A stretch of DNA of 64,000 nt from Nitrososphaerales archaeon (GTDB taxonomy: Archaea > Thermoproteota > Nitrososphaeria > Nitrososphaerales > CADDZS01): positions 1 to 64,000 of the forward strand of contig JASHNZ010000011.1 of the NCBI GenBank assembly GCA_030041355.1, given 5' to 3'. This document shows positions 29,517-56,537 of this stretch, in pieces; within the stretch, counting starts at the first letter, position 1, and every line of letters begins with the position of its first letter. The translations under genes were made by a program, and so were the position numbers. A model generated the notes under the pieces. It had not been told where the DNA came from and searched no databases. It was given only the letters and a program-made list of their open reading frames with translations.

Positions 29517-29789
29517 CTACGCGCTCCCCAGCTGGACGGCGACTACTAAGAAAGAGGCCGCAACTAGACAGCCTACAAGTAGCCAGTTGCTGCTTTCTGC
29601 AGTTATGCTCGGTTTATAGTATATGTAAACAATCATCGCGAAAATTACTAACTCCGAGCCAAGCATTGCCCCAAAGACTCGCTGAAGAGAAACAATATTC
29701 AAGATCCACAAATATGCGGCAATTGAAGCGGCCGCCGTGGCCAAGAGCGTGATTACGGAATACCTCACAATATCTTCGTCCGGTTTCAC
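29517..29789 (-). CDS. small three-helix membrane protein, last gene of the bc operon
   Basis: 90 aa with three hydrophobic helices (about residues 11-32, 38-57 and 67-87). Its ATG overlaps the cytochrome b stop by 4 bp (29786-29789), so it is translationally coupled and likely a small subunit or assembly factor of the complex. No cofactor motif is seen. I do not recognise the family. Confidence 0.65.
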   Translation of the reverse strand: MKPDEDIVRYSVITLLATAAASIAAYLWILNIVSLQRVFGAMLGSELVIFAMIVYIYYKPSITAESSNWLLVGCLVAASFLVVAVQLGSA

Positions 29790-31207
29790 GCTTGTCTATC
29801 ACGCCCTAGAGTAAGGCTTCTCATCATCCGGGCCATCGCAAAAAACGATCCGAACAGCACTGCGAAATTGATTATCGCAAGAATTAGATTTACTGGAACT
29901 GTCGTGAGAGATCCTACAAGGTTAGCAAAGGAAACTGATCCCGCAATCAGTGGAATCATAAATAGCATTGTTATCGTTCGGTTTCGGTTTCTGAACGGGA
30001 GCATCATCGCACTTAGAGAGGACTTTATTGGTATCTTGAGAATTTTTGTTCGGACTAGGTTACTTCTGAAAACGAACAAAGAAACCACGGCAACGCCGAT
30101 TGCAACTCCTCCGATGACTATTACTGCTTGAGCATTGGAGATGACCTGTCCCGGGGTAAGATGCCCCCAGATTGTTAGCGTCAAGAGTTCCGCGATCATG
30201 ATCAGACCGATGGTTGTGTATATTGGTCTCGACTTTGGATTCCTCTGAGTCCCGCGATCTATGAAGGGCAAAAGCGCTAGTCCGATTACCAAGAGCGTCA
30301 CCGCGCCCAGAGCAAAGTAGATCCCCGGACCCTCAAAAGCCTGTACCTTCAGAACCTGGTACATCCAAAGGAAATACCAATCAGGTTGAGCTACAAAATT
30401 TGCGGCGGCTTGAGGAGTGTATTCTGCAGGGAGAGTAAGTGGGAACATTGCAGCCGCTACGAAGACTATAGCTACAAAGATGGCCCCAATCATTGCGAAA
30501 TAGAGATATACTCTTGGGAACCAGGGGATTTCCTTTGAATTTTTTTTTGCGCCACCAACAGGTTCAGCCGCCCCATGGGCTTCAAACATATACATCTTCA
30601 GGGCAAGGAGCGAAAGGAGACCCGCGGGCAGGACAATTATATGAAGGTCGAAGAATCTTGTAAGCTCGGCAGCTCCGCTTCCTGACCCGGCAATCAAGTA
30701 GGTCAAGATCGGGCCTATTTGCGCAGGCAAGAAACTTAGCATTCCTATTGAGACATCCGTTGCGGACTTAGACACGACAGTCCATGGAAGCAGGTATCCA
30801 GTCAAACCCAATCCCATCACAGTCAATCCCATCAGCATTCCTGTGACCCACATCATTTCACGCGGTTTCTTTTGTACGCTGGCGAAATATCCACGGAATA
30901 AGTGAAGAAAAGTAAGCAAAATCATCGCATAGGCTCCATAAAGATGCACCGTCTCTAGTAGCCAACCGAGCGGCACCTGCTGAATGATAAAGACGGTAGA
31001 AGTGTAAGCCTGATCAGTTGTCGGCACGTAGTAGATCAGCATGAGCAGACCGGTCAACACCTGCAGACCAAATGCAATCACGGTGAGTGCGCCGAGCCAG
31101 TATAACGGGTTCATGCTGTACTCGGGAACCGGCCGAAGAACGGTCGTCTTCAGTCCAAACCTGTTCTTGAACCACTCAACAAATTTTCTTCCGGGGTTTT
31201 CGGTCAT
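29786..31207 (-). CDS. cytochrome b of a Rieske/cytochrome b complex, with an altered heme ligand
   Basis: 473 aa membrane subunit oxidising a quinol. Helix B has His88 and His102 (14 apart) and helix D has His189, but the partner expected at +15 is Lys204 (LLALKMYMFEAHG); the next His is 211. The quinol-site motif is PDWY (AQPDWYFLW), the variant seen with menaquinone-type systems. After the b6-like core come more helices to the C-terminus, as in fused b6-subunit IV proteins. The Rieske gene is 14 bp upstream, and a 90-aa membrane protein is coupled downstream. The intact ligand set in the second cytochrome b (55158-56537) makes the change stand out. Confidence 0.93.
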   Translation of the reverse strand: MTENPGRKFVEWFKNRFGLKTTVLRPVPEYSMNPLYWLGALTVIAFGLQVLTGLLMLIYYVPTTDQAYTSTVFIIQQVPLGWLLETVHLYGAYAMILLTFLHLFRGYFASVQKKPREMMWVTGMLMGLTVMGLGLTGYLLPWTVVSKSATDVSIGMLSFLPAQIGPILTYLIAGSGSGAAELTRFFDLHIIVLPAGLLSLLALKMYMFEAHGAAEPVGGAKKNSKEIPWFPRVYLYFAMIGAIFVAIVFVAAAMFPLTLPAEYTPQAAANFVAQPDWYFLWMYQVLKVQAFEGPGIYFALGAVTLLVIGLALLPFIDRGTQRNPKSRPIYTTIGLIMIAELLTLTIWGHLTPGQVISNAQAVIVIGGVAIGVAVVSLFVFRSNLVRTKILKIPIKSSLSAMMLPFRNRNRTITMLFMIPLIAGSVSFANLVGSLTTVPVNLILAIINFAVLFGSFFAMARMMRSLTLGRDRQA

Positions 31208-31221
31208 CTTCTTGCCCTCCT

Positions 31222-31935
31222 TTATGTGGAACTTGAAACTGTCGTGCTCGTCGTTGTAGTCGTAGTCGTCGTAGTTATGCCAGCCACAACAGTTCCGCCC
31301 GTGAGGTCATCTTGTAGAACGCTGGCAGGATTGCTCGTGCCGGGAGGACCATGCCCGAAGATCGTTGGCGCTGTCATTCCTGTCGCATAGATATTGCCCG
31401 TCGAAGCATCAAAGCTCAGAATAACCTGGGGCACCGGCCTCGGCGCCGGTCCTCCGACCACCTTAGCCCCGTTGGCAAGATCGTAGATGCTTCCATGGCA
31501 ACAGCAGTATCCAACTGGCCCTGATGCTCTGTAAGAACTGTTACAATCGGGTGATGAACCGGATCCCACAAATGCATAGACGCAACCCAAGTGCTGGCAT
31601 ATTTCGCTGAACGCAACGATATCGTTGTCGGGACCAACTCCTCCTTTCGCCGGTTGTCCTAGTTTTACAAGAATATTCGGCGTCTCTTCGAGGGGATAGT
31701 TGAACGGGACCGGCTTACCCGCTTGGAGGTCACTCAAGTTTGCTATCAATACTACTGGCCATACCAAAGGAGTTGTTGAGCCTGCATTCGGTGAGGGAAC
31801 GAAACTTAAAATTCTGAACATGCTTGCCACGGAACCGAGGGTTGCCAATCCTCCCAGCGTTAGAACGAGCTTTAGGAAGTTCCTTTTACTCCCGTCGATT
31901 TCAGGATTCTCTATTTCTTTATCAGTTGATCCCAT
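31222..31935 (-). CDS. Rieske iron-sulfur protein
   Basis: 237 aa. A KRNFLK-type leader and an N-terminal membrane anchor (about residues 20-46) precede the Rieske domain. Box I is CQHLGC and box II is CCCHGS (the usual CPCHGS with Pro replaced by Cys), giving two Cys and two His ligands for the 2Fe-2S cluster and the disulfide pair. A Thr/Ser-rich C-terminal tail follows GGTVVAGI. It transfers electrons from quinol via cytochrome b to a periplasmic-side acceptor. It sits 14 bp before cytochrome b in the operon. Confidence 0.93.
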   Translation of the reverse strand: MGSTDKEIENPEIDGSKRNFLKLVLTLGGLATLGSVASMFRILSFVPSPNAGSTTPLVWPVVLIANLSDLQAGKPVPFNYPLEETPNILVKLGQPAKGGVGPDNDIVAFSEICQHLGCVYAFVGSGSSPDCNSSYRASGPVGYCCCHGSIYDLANGAKVVGGPAPRPVPQVILSFDASTGNIYATGMTAPTIFGHGPPGTSNPASVLQDDLTGGTVVAGITTTTTTTTTSTTVSSST

Positions 31936-31944
31936 CTTTCTTCA

Positions 31945-32295
31945 TCACATTGCTGAATGATCAGAGTGGCTCAACCTCATCATCAACAGCAGTCCCGCGG
32001 CTAGACCGAGCAGAACTAATACAAAAGTCGCTACAGCTGCTGTTGGGAGATCAAAGGCGATGCTTATAGTAGCTGTAGTAACGGTGGAAGAAGTTTGCGT
32101 AGCATTACCGCTTGTTGAAGCGCCATAAGATACGTGGCCGGCTGCCATTCCAAAAAGAATAGTTAGAGCAAGTGCAAGCATCAGAGCTGAAATCGACTTA
32201 TGCAATGGCATAGAATTGCGAAAATTAGGCGTTGTTCGCAACGATCGCGGAGGATATTCTCTCGCTGACTTTTTGATCAAGTTCAGCCCGTTCAT
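31945..32295 (-). CDS. small secreted or membrane-anchored protein of the bc operon
   Basis: Up to 116 aa. A signal-type helix (about residues 34-58) with a GHVSYGAS end, a Thr/Ser-rich stretch, then one C-terminal membrane helix (about 84-108). The ATG at 32295 overlaps the previous stop by 4 bp. A second ATG at residue 29 (MPLHKSISALM) would give a normal signal peptide and may be the true start. The family is unknown. It lies between the 8-helix protein and the Rieske gene. Confidence 0.6.
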   Translation of the reverse strand: MNGLNLIKKSAREYPPRSLRTTPNFRNSMPLHKSISALMLALALTILFGMAAGHVSYGASTSGNATQTSSTVTTATISIAFDLPTAAVATFVLVLLGLAAGLLLMMRLSHSDHSAM

Positions 32296-33197
32296 TCCTG
32301 TTGTTTAGGAGTACTCTTGGGTGCTGCACGCCTAAAAAATGCAAGATTCAGATGTAATGGTGCTTCAATTGATAGAAGCAAGAATGAATATACCAAGACT
32401 GTCAACTCCGCCATGACCACAACATAAGATACTCCGCCAATCGTGACTGTGATTACCCCATCACCACCTGCAATGGATATTGCTGCGAGTCCTAGAAGCG
32501 AATAAACAACCCTTTGAGGAACCCACGATCGCACTCCTGATTTATTCATGGTCGATCCTTCAAGAATTGAAAGCAGAACGATTCCGAGAACCAATGATAC
32601 AGTGAGAGCTGCGAGTCCAACGTGCAAGACGACCGCGAAGGCATACAGAGAAATCGACTCGACAGCTGCGCCTGCTATTACGGTGAGAGACAGCGCTACG
32701 AGCGCGAAATACGTCATAAGTGAAGATGGCGACCTGTGTTCATCCGATCTCAAACCGCGCGCTGAACTTGATATCTTCGCCAGTGAGTACCCAGTGATGG
32801 GCATCGCGATTCCGACTGTGGACATCATCGCTAGATTCGTGATCAGGATTTGATTTGCGCTTGAATTGTTGCTCAAGAATGCAAACCCCGAGGCACCTGC
32901 AACTAACGTAACAAAGAAAAGCGCAAGATTGGATATGGCCACTCGCTTCTGATTCTCAAGGGCGGCAAGGAACCCAACGACTGCTGACAATAATCCAAAT
33001 CCAGACGCAAGAATGCCATGGACAATAAACTCAGGCGTAGTAAGGGAGGCCCCATGAATCTCTGTTACGAGCCACACTCCAACAATGAACGTGAGGACCA
33101 AAAAGAGGGCTTGAATATATATGAAGTAAAGAATCTGTGTTGCTCGTTGCTTATCGTTCTTTCGGCTCAAATTCTCGAGGGGAGATAGAACCGTCAT
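32292..33197 (-). CDS. eight-helix membrane protein of the bc operon
   Basis: 301 aa with eight hydrophobic helices that split into two halves of four. His60 (FIVHGILASGFGLL) and His192 (VVLHVGLAALTVSL) sit at equivalent places in the second helix of each half, so the protein looks like a duplicated four-helix unit. The two next genes upstream encode single four-helix units with His68 and His69 in matching positions. The plan recalls heme A synthase (CtaA/COX15), where two four-helix halves bind heme, but sequence proof is lacking. It is separated from the previous gene by 1 bp. Confidence 0.7.
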   Translation of the reverse strand: MTVLSPLENLSRKNDKQRATQILYFIYIQALFLVLTFIVGVWLVTEIHGASLTTPEFIVHGILASGFGLLSAVVGFLAALENQKRVAISNLALFFVTLVAGASGFAFLSNNSSANQILITNLAMMSTVGIAMPITGYSLAKISSSARGLRSDEHRSPSSLMTYFALVALSLTVIAGAAVESISLYAFAVVLHVGLAALTVSLVLGIVLLSILEGSTMNKSGVRSWVPQRVVYSLLGLAAISIAGGDGVITVTIGGVSYVVVMAELTVLVYSFLLLSIEAPLHLNLAFFRRAAPKSTPKQQE

Positions 33198-33198
33198 G

Positions 33199-33708
33199 TC
33201 ATTCTTTGCTCTGCCGCATGTTCAGTTCAGTGATCCGGATAGCTCTCATGATCTTGAGAGCGGCATAATATGAAAGAAACAAGGCGAGCATGAAGAGAAA
33301 CGACATTATCCATCCCCCTATCAATGTGGTACTTCCTGAATATCTCCCACCGCCGGTAGCAACGAAAAGCATTCCTGCTGCACTCGCAATCACTAAGGAA
33401 ATAACAGCTCCCAGACTAAATAGGGCAACCTTCCTCATTCCGTAAAGAAAACCAACCATCATGATGACGAAAGTAAATGCAAAATTTACAATTGCCAAAA
33501 TCATATGCACAATGTTAGAAATATTGCCAATGCCAATCGTAATGACGCCTGACGTGATGAATATGTTGATGTACATGCCCGTCACGTAAAGCAAGAGATA
33601 TACCACAAAATTCGCGTAACATAGCCTCAGAGTTAGGCGCAGACCACTAAGACCAAGATCTCCAATCTCCTCACCCTTCATTGACCTATCTATTTGTTGA
33701 ACTTGCAA
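33199..33708 (-). CDS. four-helix membrane protein of the bc operon (paralog A)
   Basis: 169 aa with four helices (about residues 28-52, 62-88, 94-118 and 128-152). His68 lies in SNIVHMILAIVNFAF at the start of helix 2, and the loop-helix YGMRKVALFSLGAV matches VGLRQVVLLHSGAI in the next gene, so the two are paralogs. The topology fits a single half of a CtaA-like four-helix unit; the role is unknown. It is 3 bp downstream of paralog B. Confidence 0.7.
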   Translation of the reverse strand: MQVQQIDRSMKGEEIGDLGLSGLRLTLRLCYANFVVYLLLYVTGMYINIFITSGVITIGIGNISNIVHMILAIVNFAFTFVIMMVGFLYGMRKVALFSLGAVISLVIASAAGMLFVATGGGRYSGSTTLIGGWIMSFLFMLALFLSYYAALKIMRAIRITELNMRQSKE

Positions 33709-33711
33709 CGT

Positions 33712-34239
33712 CTATCTTCCCACCAGTGGCGTCTGGATTGGCGTGGCGAACTTTATTCGGACGTCTTCCCTAACAATGAATATTCTGCTCAAGAATGTCA
33801 AGATGACTGCGATAAGAAAAACTGAAGCCATGACAAAAGTGGAAATGCTTGCAGAAAATGCGTTGCTTATCGACGAGGTTGAGTAATATATGAAAAGAGG
33901 GCCCGCCACGAAACCTACCAGCCTCGAGCTTATTGCTCCAGAGTGCAATAAAACAACCTGACGTAGTCCAACTCTTCTCGCCAACACAATCAAAGGGATG
34001 CTCATACTCGTACTGAGGACGGCGAAGGTGACGTGGGCGAAAAGCGATGGTGCCGCGAAAATCTGCAAGAAGATACTCGAGAAATTCGCCTGTACTGTGC
34101 TCGGGACTGCATAGTAATAATTCACAAACATACCTGCTGCAATCGTCGCCCAGTAAAACGCAAACTGCAAATACAAGAAGAGAAAAATTCGGCGCAGAGT
34201 CTTCGCAACATTTTCGTTCTCGGAGAAACTCTTTGTCAA
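33712..34239 (-). CDS. four-helix membrane protein of the bc operon (paralog B)
   Basis: 176 aa from the TTG at 34239, with four helices and His69 in SLFAHVTFAVLSTSM. The frame is open to 34413, but a TATA box at 34306-34318 places the transcript start near 34285, so the TTG start is preferred. From there the protein matches paralog A (33199-33708) in length and helix order. It is the first gene of the seven-gene operon. Confidence 0.65.
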   Translation of the reverse strand: MTKSFSENENVAKTLRRIFLFLYLQFAFYWATIAAGMFVNYYYAVPSTVQANFSSIFLQIFAAPSLFAHVTFAVLSTSMSIPLIVLARRVGLRQVVLLHSGAISSRLVGFVAGPLFIYYSTSSISNAFSASISTFVMASVFLIAVILTFLSRIFIVREDVRIKFATPIQTPLVGR

Positions 34240-34305
34240 GAATTCATCAATCTGCGAAAAGTCCCAAATTTCTGTTTGTTGGTTTAGAACAACGTGTAAG
34301 GACTC

Positions 34306-34318
34306 TAATATATAAATT
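34306..34318 (-). promoter_or_regulatory. TATA box of the seven-gene bc operon
   Basis: Minus-strand AATTTATATATTA, the strongest AT-only element near the operon. It predicts a start near 34285 and a leader of about 45 nt before the TTG at 34239. Confidence 0.6.
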
Positions 34319-34413
34319 GAAGGAAAGAAAGGCTTTGTAGAAACCCTATGATAAAAGAATAAGCGAGATTCGCAACGAACTGTCAACTTATAGTTGTGGA
34401 CAATCATCCCCAA

Positions 34414-55157: not shown

Positions 55158-56537
55158 TCACAGAGGTCTAGAATATCTGTAGAGGTGGAACATTACCGCA
55201 AAGAGCATCGCGACGGCTCCAAGATCAAACATTACGAGGTTCGGAAAGTGCTCATTTGCTGCAAGTATGGCATTCGCGTTCAAGAATACTTGGAAGCCGA
55301 GCATTATTGCGAGAAGGGCAAAAATCCACTTTGAACTTAGGAAGTTCACATTTTGAGGTCGCCTTCCTCTTGCGGCCTTGCCCGCTACTCCTTTGGTAGC
55401 CAGTCTTCTGAGGTAGGCATAGGTTCCTACGTAGCATAAGGCGGCGACCAAAATCATAGCTCCAAAAATTTCAACCGGGTTGATGAAAAGGGCCTCTGTG
55501 GCGCTCGGAGCCGTTTCATTGATGTAGAAGCCCCAGTAACTCGTGAGCAAAATCTGGCCGATGCTAGCTATTCCTAGCGCAGTGAAGAAAGGTCGATCCT
55601 TCCAGGAGAACTTTTTGCTCTTATCTACGAACGGGATGACCAAAAACATGAGTATGAAAAGAGTCGGGATTAATATTCCCGCGATAAACTTCGGCATGAA
55701 GGTCCTCAGAAACGCATAGAGGCTCGTGAGATACCATTCGGGTAGAGTGAAACCAACATTGACTGAAGGAGTATATTGCACGCCCAGCGAGATCGGGTAG
55801 AGACCCCCGACAAGCAAGATCGCCCCAAAAACTGCCGTGATTATTGGAATGTCAAAAGTTAGAATTCGGGGAAAGTGAAGGAGAGCCAAAACGATCATGA
55901 TGACTGGAATAATGAAAATGTGGAGATCATAAAATCTCAAAATAAAATCCGGAAAGCCCGACCCGAAGATAGTGTGAACGAGCTGAGGCCCGATTAATGG
56001 AGATGAATAAGTTAGAGAGACACCAATGCTTACCGCCAAGACTGATCTTGTATTGAGGATAATGTCATAACCAGTAAAGGCCTCCAGAACCGTGACGGTT
56101 CCAAATATTATCCCCGTGACCCAGATAATTTCATTTCTTATCTTGAATCTTCCTGAGAAATAATTGTAGTACATGTGGGCGAGGGCAAGAAAGACCATGG
56201 CGTTGGAAGCGTGGTAATGGATGTTTCTGATTATTTCGCCGTAAGGAATGGTGTTGTTAATCGTTTGAACACTGGTCCATGCACCAGTGAGAGAAGGAGT
56301 ATAGAACAGCATCAGCAGCGCTCCCGTCACTCCCAGGATTAGGAAACATATGAAAGTCAGAAAGCCAAGAAAAGGAAGCGGACTGACAAATCTCTTGGGA
56401 ACGGTGAACTTGTAAGCCAGCCAACCAGTCCGATCCAACCTGTCGATGATCCAGTCGTATAACTTCCTTAGTAGATAACGGAGAGTGATTCGTTCTTTCT
56501 CAGGAGGAGCTGTGGAGGCTTGTGCTTGAGTTGCCAT
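55158..56537 (-). CDS. cytochrome b of the second Rieske complex
   Basis: 459 aa. Heme ligands are complete: His107 and His121 in helix B, His206 and His221 in helix D (14 and 15 apart, the b6-type spacing). The quinol motif is PEWY (LPEWYLTSLY). The C-terminal part adds more helices, as in fused archaeal b6-IV proteins. It oxidises a quinol and passes electrons to the Rieske protein encoded 28 bp upstream. ATG start at 56537. Confidence 0.93.
   Translation of the reverse strand: MATQAQASTAPPEKERITLRYLLRKLYDWIIDRLDRTGWLAYKFTVPKRFVSPLPFLGFLTFICFLILGVTGALLMLFYTPSLTGAWTSVQTINNTIPYGEIIRNIHYHASNAMVFLALAHMYYNYFSGRFKIRNEIIWVTGIIFGTVTVLEAFTGYDIILNTRSVLAVSIGVSLTYSSPLIGPQLVHTIFGSGFPDFILRFYDLHIFIIPVIMIVLALLHFPRILTFDIPIITAVFGAILLVGGLYPISLGVQYTPSVNVGFTLPEWYLTSLYAFLRTFMPKFIAGILIPTLFILMFLVIPFVDKSKKFSWKDRPFFTALGIASIGQILLTSYWGFYINETAPSATEALFINPVEIFGAMILVAALCYVGTYAYLRRLATKGVAGKAARGRRPQNVNFLSSKWIFALLAIMLGFQVFLNANAILAANEHFPNLVMFDLGAVAMLFAVMFHLYRYSRPL

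Follow-up and report, generated by a model that had tools for sequence, protein, structure and literature searches.

A cytochrome b gene residing at positions 29786 to 31207 on the minus strand of the DNA examined here (a 64,000-nucleotide stretch of a Nitrososphaerales genome, hereafter called the window) codes for a lysine where the fourth heme-ligating histidine is otherwise found. Judging from sequence comparisons and from analogy with a bacterial mutant, this residue (Lys204) probably takes the fourth ligand place, such that heme bH of this Rieske/cytochrome b complex would be a natural case of His-Lys ligation. The ligation of both b hemes by pairs of histidines has been treated as a constant of complex III, and the archaeal Lys type would be the natural counterpart of an arrangement previously known only from a mutant.

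The open reading frame (P0001) is intact and encodes a full-length cytochrome b of 473 amino acids, in which both the N- and C-terminal Pfam domains of the family are present (PF00033, 126 bits; PF13631, 112.6 bits; PF00032, 43.6 bits). In a phmmer search against chains of solved structure, the top match is cytochrome b6 (E = 1.8e-38), followed by bc1 cytochrome b. A Foldseek search with the AlphaFold model of the protein (pLDDT 70.5, medium confidence) recovers cytochrome b chains of bc1 complexes (E about 1e-9), and a single helix of this model spanning residues 178 to 211 bears both His189 and Lys204. Alignments agree with the original prediction that the first three ligand positions are normal. 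On the minus strand, these are His88 (helix B; 30944-30946) and His189 (helix D; 30641-30643) for heme bL, and His102 (helix B; 30902-30904) as the remaining ligand for heme bH. With three histidines plus Lys204 in place of the four histidines that hold two b hemes, the protein is thus a variant rather than a textbook member of the family.

The same prediction had located a lysine where another cytochrome b carries histidine, and both the codon (AAG; 30596-30598, minus strand) and the alignments bear this out. Lys204 lies 15 residues past His189 and falls under the second helix D histidine of solved cytochrome b6 chains. It also shares a column with the helix D histidine of a Tistrella cytochrome b, which in turn aligns with the histidine of Paracoccus bc1. 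By alignment, therefore, column 204 is the ligand place of heme bH/bn. The Qo-site motif at residues 275-278 (30374-30385, minus strand) reads PDWY, a variant of PEWY. Its departure from PEWY had likewise been pointed out, yet we reject it as an oddity because both residues are common in the group: Asp is present in 22 and Glu in 11 of the 33 core Lys proteins, and PEWY is carried by the nearest orthologues.

Our survey of column 204 comprises 134 well-covered archaeal cytochrome b rows, among which are 33 core Lys proteins and six divergent Lys proteins from family f26. Histidine is present in 95 rows and lysine in 39, and no other residue occurs. His88 and His189 are invariant in all 134 rows, and His102 is retained in 39/39 Lys rows and in 94/94 His rows that have a letter there (one frame-damaged row is gapped). 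Thus, in its pattern of conservation, column 204 behaves like the three histidine ligands, whereas a bystander position would drift. Pairwise identity among the Lys rows has a median of 43% and a minimum of 22%, and Lys204 is one of just 28 invariant positions among the 316 examined in these rows. For this residue, 26 of the Lys-type genes use AAG and 12 use AAA. This codon variation, combined with the invariance of the lysine down to 22% identity, points to selection on the residue, and the His/Lys pattern over 134 sequences excludes chance. In a bacterial sample of four plasmid-borne genes and a few solved chains, every sequence carries histidine and none carries lysine at this column.

Alignment with relatives, which had been proposed as a check, thus reveals the lysine to be a feature of a wide archaeal set. 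It had also been noted that the lysine might prove to be a sequencing error absent from close relatives, but near orthologues from independent genomes (81, 78, 75 and 67% identity) carry the same residue. The window's genome is a draft assembly with a broken third copy of the gene on another contig, and yet a sequencing or assembly error, or a gene in decay, is refuted as the source of the lysine, because numerous independent genomes carry it, its codon varies synonymously among them, and the reading frame here is intact.

The original prediction had considered three outcomes, wherein heme bH is bound by Lys204, is bound by His211 (30575-30577, minus strand), or is lost. Only the first of these has held up, given the 39 lysines among 134 sequences and the mutant precedent described below. 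A shift of helix D that allows His211 to take over the ligand role is highly improbable. Although His211 is present in 32 of the 33 core Lys rows, it is also found in 30 of the 95 proteins with the normal histidine, and it is Lys204 rather than His211 that aligns with the usual ligand. At position 211, the other intact Lys-type protein of this genome (L002) carries Gln, and each of the six Lys proteins from f26 carries Gly. Furthermore, His211 is located seven residues past Lys204, or about 10 Å and two turns along the helix, and so we rejected it as a substitute ligand.

Loss of heme bH to leave a one-heme cytochrome b would be in keeping with the replacement of a histidine at one of its two ligand positions. 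However, all 39 Lys rows retain the opposite bH ligand, His102, as well as Trp120 on the bH side, and this outcome is therefore quite improbable. In addition, bH is needed for a Q cycle, and many genomes have the Lys type as their only cytochrome b.

Rhodobacter capsulatus H212K, obtained as a spontaneous functional revertant, carries this His-to-Lys exchange at the corresponding ligand (PMC4807273). This mutant is photosynthetically competent and has a low-spin His-Lys heme bH (gz 3.22/3.15) with an Em7 of 130 mV versus 80 mV, and its turnover is 121 s-1 versus 149 s-1 (PMC4807273). Pintscher et al. (2016) knew of no natural Lys case but expected natural examples to be discovered (PMC4807273). 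We likewise found no literature report of a natural lysine in cytochrome b, nor any spectrum, EPR record or structure of a Lys-type protein, although an earlier remark in phylogeny reviews of archaeal Rieske/cytochrome b proteins is possible. In both the mutant and the archaeal protein the lysine replaces the helix D ligand of bH, and in the mutant the arrangement is functional. However, H212K is a laboratory mutant of a distant bacterial enzyme, whereas the archaeal lysine is natural and fixed. The assignment of Lys204 as a ligand is therefore supported both by its invariance in a broad archaeal set and by the fact that the same substitution works in R. capsulatus.

It is conceivable, but unlikely, that Lys204 points away from the heme, in which case bH would be high spin and five-coordinate through His102 alone, and its open side might be occupied by water or quinone. 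The position of the Lys204 side chain is fixed by no structure, and heme cn of b6f, which sits beside a quinone site, has a variable or water second ligand; the effects of such a ligand are discussed in PMC12954380. On the other hand, the strict alternation of His and Lys in 134 sequences fits a ligand better than a bystander, and bH stays low spin in R. capsulatus H212K.

Taken together, these comparisons make it very likely that the gene belongs to an archaeal complex III with a six-coordinate, low-spin His-Fe-Lys heme bH of raised potential. The gene product would serve as the cytochrome b of a Rieske/cytochrome b complex, with heme bL held as usual by His88 and His189, and with heme bH held by His102 and the amine of Lys204. 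Quinol would be oxidized at the Qo site formed by the PDWY loop, from which one electron would pass to the Rieske cluster and the second via bL and bH to quinone at the Qi site. Relative to bis-His ligation, lysine is predicted to raise the midpoint potential of bH by approximately 50 mV if the R. capsulatus mutant is a guide, and hence the electron would be held more strongly on bH and the balance between bH and quinone would be shifted. We infer the lysine-iron bond, the low-spin state, the potential shift and its physiological use by analogy. One might speculate that bH is fitted to the quinone of these organisms or to low pH. Many of the named Lys carriers come from acid habitats, although Pyrobaculum would not fit.

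A second signature residue is evident on the bH side of helix C, where Met119 adjoins Trp120. This methionine is fixed in 33/33 core Lys-type proteins, is present in 6% of His types, and is replaced by Leu in f26. Its specificity to the core Lys types shows that the pocket differs in further ways, which we counted against the explanation given above.

The protein has in common with bc1 cytochrome b (R. capsulatus, mitochondria) the fold, the helix B and D ligands, the Qo motif and a Rieske partner. However, the fourth ligand of the bc1 protein is a histidine and the helix D spacing is 14, compared to lysine and a spacing of 15 here, and the operon in the window lacks a gene for cytochrome c1. 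Cytochrome b6 of the b6f complex is the best sequence match among solved structures and has the same spacing of 15, but its ligand is His202 where the window protein has Lys204. Moreover, Cys35 of b6, which holds heme cn covalently, corresponds to Trp37 in the window protein and this tryptophan is invariant in 39 Lys rows, so in this respect the protein is not of the b6f type. Also unlike b6f, the counterparts of b6 and subunit IV are fused. The best NCBIfam relative is the SoxC/SoxN type of Sulfolobales (NF041076), yet the score of 200.8 bits lies below the cut-off of 740 and does not place the protein in SoxC. All sampled sequences from Sulfolobales have histidine at column 204 and a spacing of 14, and we consequently rejected a horizontal link to Sulfolobales SoxN, an idea based on gene order, as the source of the lysine. 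The window contains another cytochrome b of the same superfamily (55158-56537) with an adjoining Rieske-like gene. This type is widespread in Nitrososphaerales, but it has all four histidine ligands, including one at column 204, and belongs to a different subfamily.

Directly upstream of the cytochrome b gene is a gene for a Rieske [2Fe-2S] subunit (31222-31935, minus strand; PF00355, 28.1 bits; TIGR03171, 73), in which the cluster ligands C113, H115, C144 and H147 are kept. This protein scores 103.1 against the arsenite oxidase small subunit model TIGR02694, above the cut-off of 95.65, and would be misnamed by that model; the neighboring open reading frames include no apparent large subunit of arsenite oxidase. 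Wherever we read the flanking sequence of a Lys locus, a Rieske gene precedes cytochrome b, with the exception of L039, where the contig ends inside the gene. All Rieske partners at Lys loci, those of family f25 included, retain the four cluster ligands. The f25 partner at L166:3606-4307 is missed by Pfam and has one usual disulfide cysteine replaced. In f26 genomes the cytochrome b/Rieske pair adjoins a heme-copper oxidase; of the two such genomes examined, one has a cytochrome c there as well.

The remaining genes of the run, all on the minus strand, code for membrane proteins. One of 90 amino acids (29517-29789) overlaps the 3′ end of the cytochrome b gene, has homologues beside many Lys-type genes, and is likely to be a small subunit. 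It carries no histidine, conserved or otherwise, and we therefore rejected the possibility that a partner subunit donates a histidine to the heme. Four others span positions 31945 to 34413: a protein of 116 amino acids (31945-32295) that is kept in close orthologous loci only, a multi-helix protein of 301 amino acids (32292-33197) found only in G000, G001, G004, G005 and G055, and two that locus comparison reveals to be paralogues, one of 169 amino acids (33199-33708) and one at 33712-34413 whose true start is probably inside the open reading frame. None of the four matches a Pfam or NCBIfam family. The 301-residue protein also has no PDB match, and its structure model is poor (pLDDT 47.8). 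In the loci and genomes searched, these four proteins accompany only close orthologues of the window cytochrome b, whereas the lysine is far more widely distributed, and they were likewise rejected as histidine donors.

Lys carriers span seven family codes along with named soil and thermoacidophile lineages. Among them are Candidatus Gagatemarchaeum, other soil thaumarchaeota, Caldisphaera, an Acidilobaceae genome and one Thermoplasmata MAG, as well as family groups f18, f25 (one genus) and f61 and the divergent f26. Several carriers are organisms that we take to be Pyrobaculum aerophilum, P. calidifontis, P. oguniense, Caldisphaera lagunensis and Thermoproteus uzoniensis. Histidine is found in the sampled sequences from Sulfolobales, Aeropyrum-like organisms, the Nitrososphaerales type-2 group and nearly all Thermoplasmatota (some of these order and genus names are our own reading). 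When 17 genomes, including 16 that bear the lysine, were searched with PF00033, the Lys type was the sole member in 15/16 and occurred alongside a His type in one. Because it is the sole such protein in these carriers, the Lys type most likely forms their working complex. The window's genome holds two intact Lys types, one His type and a broken third Lys-type copy. The second intact copy is located at L165:1075-2643, and the broken one, with stops and frameshifts, is at L165:11024-12232 (contig C65), approximately 9 kb away.

In a tree built without column 204, the Lys label takes three changes compared to 27.8 when labels are shuffled, and the test does not reject a single clade uniting the Lys rows, without establishing one (p-AU 0.18, quick tree). 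Families f25, f26 and f28 each include both Lys and His types in different genera or genes, implying losses or gene replacement. We lean toward a broader proposal in which the Lys proteins form an old and widespread branch of archaeal complex III, with probably one or a few origins and a natural His-Lys bH of raised potential, that is the only complex III in several lineages. Such a heme would be the first natural lysine-ligated heme in a membrane helix bundle. The natural Lys set and matched His relatives would permit the weight of the bH potential in the Q cycle to be tested, and the same comparison could address whether a change of quinone or an acidic habitat lies behind a retuning of bH. 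If the identities that we assume are correct, carriers include cultivated Pyrobaculum and Caldisphaera, and these tests could be conducted in cultivated organisms.

The Lys-type gene of the single Thermoplasmata MAG (L038, G441) falls within the Nitrososphaerales clade, a placement that suggests either transfer or misbinning.
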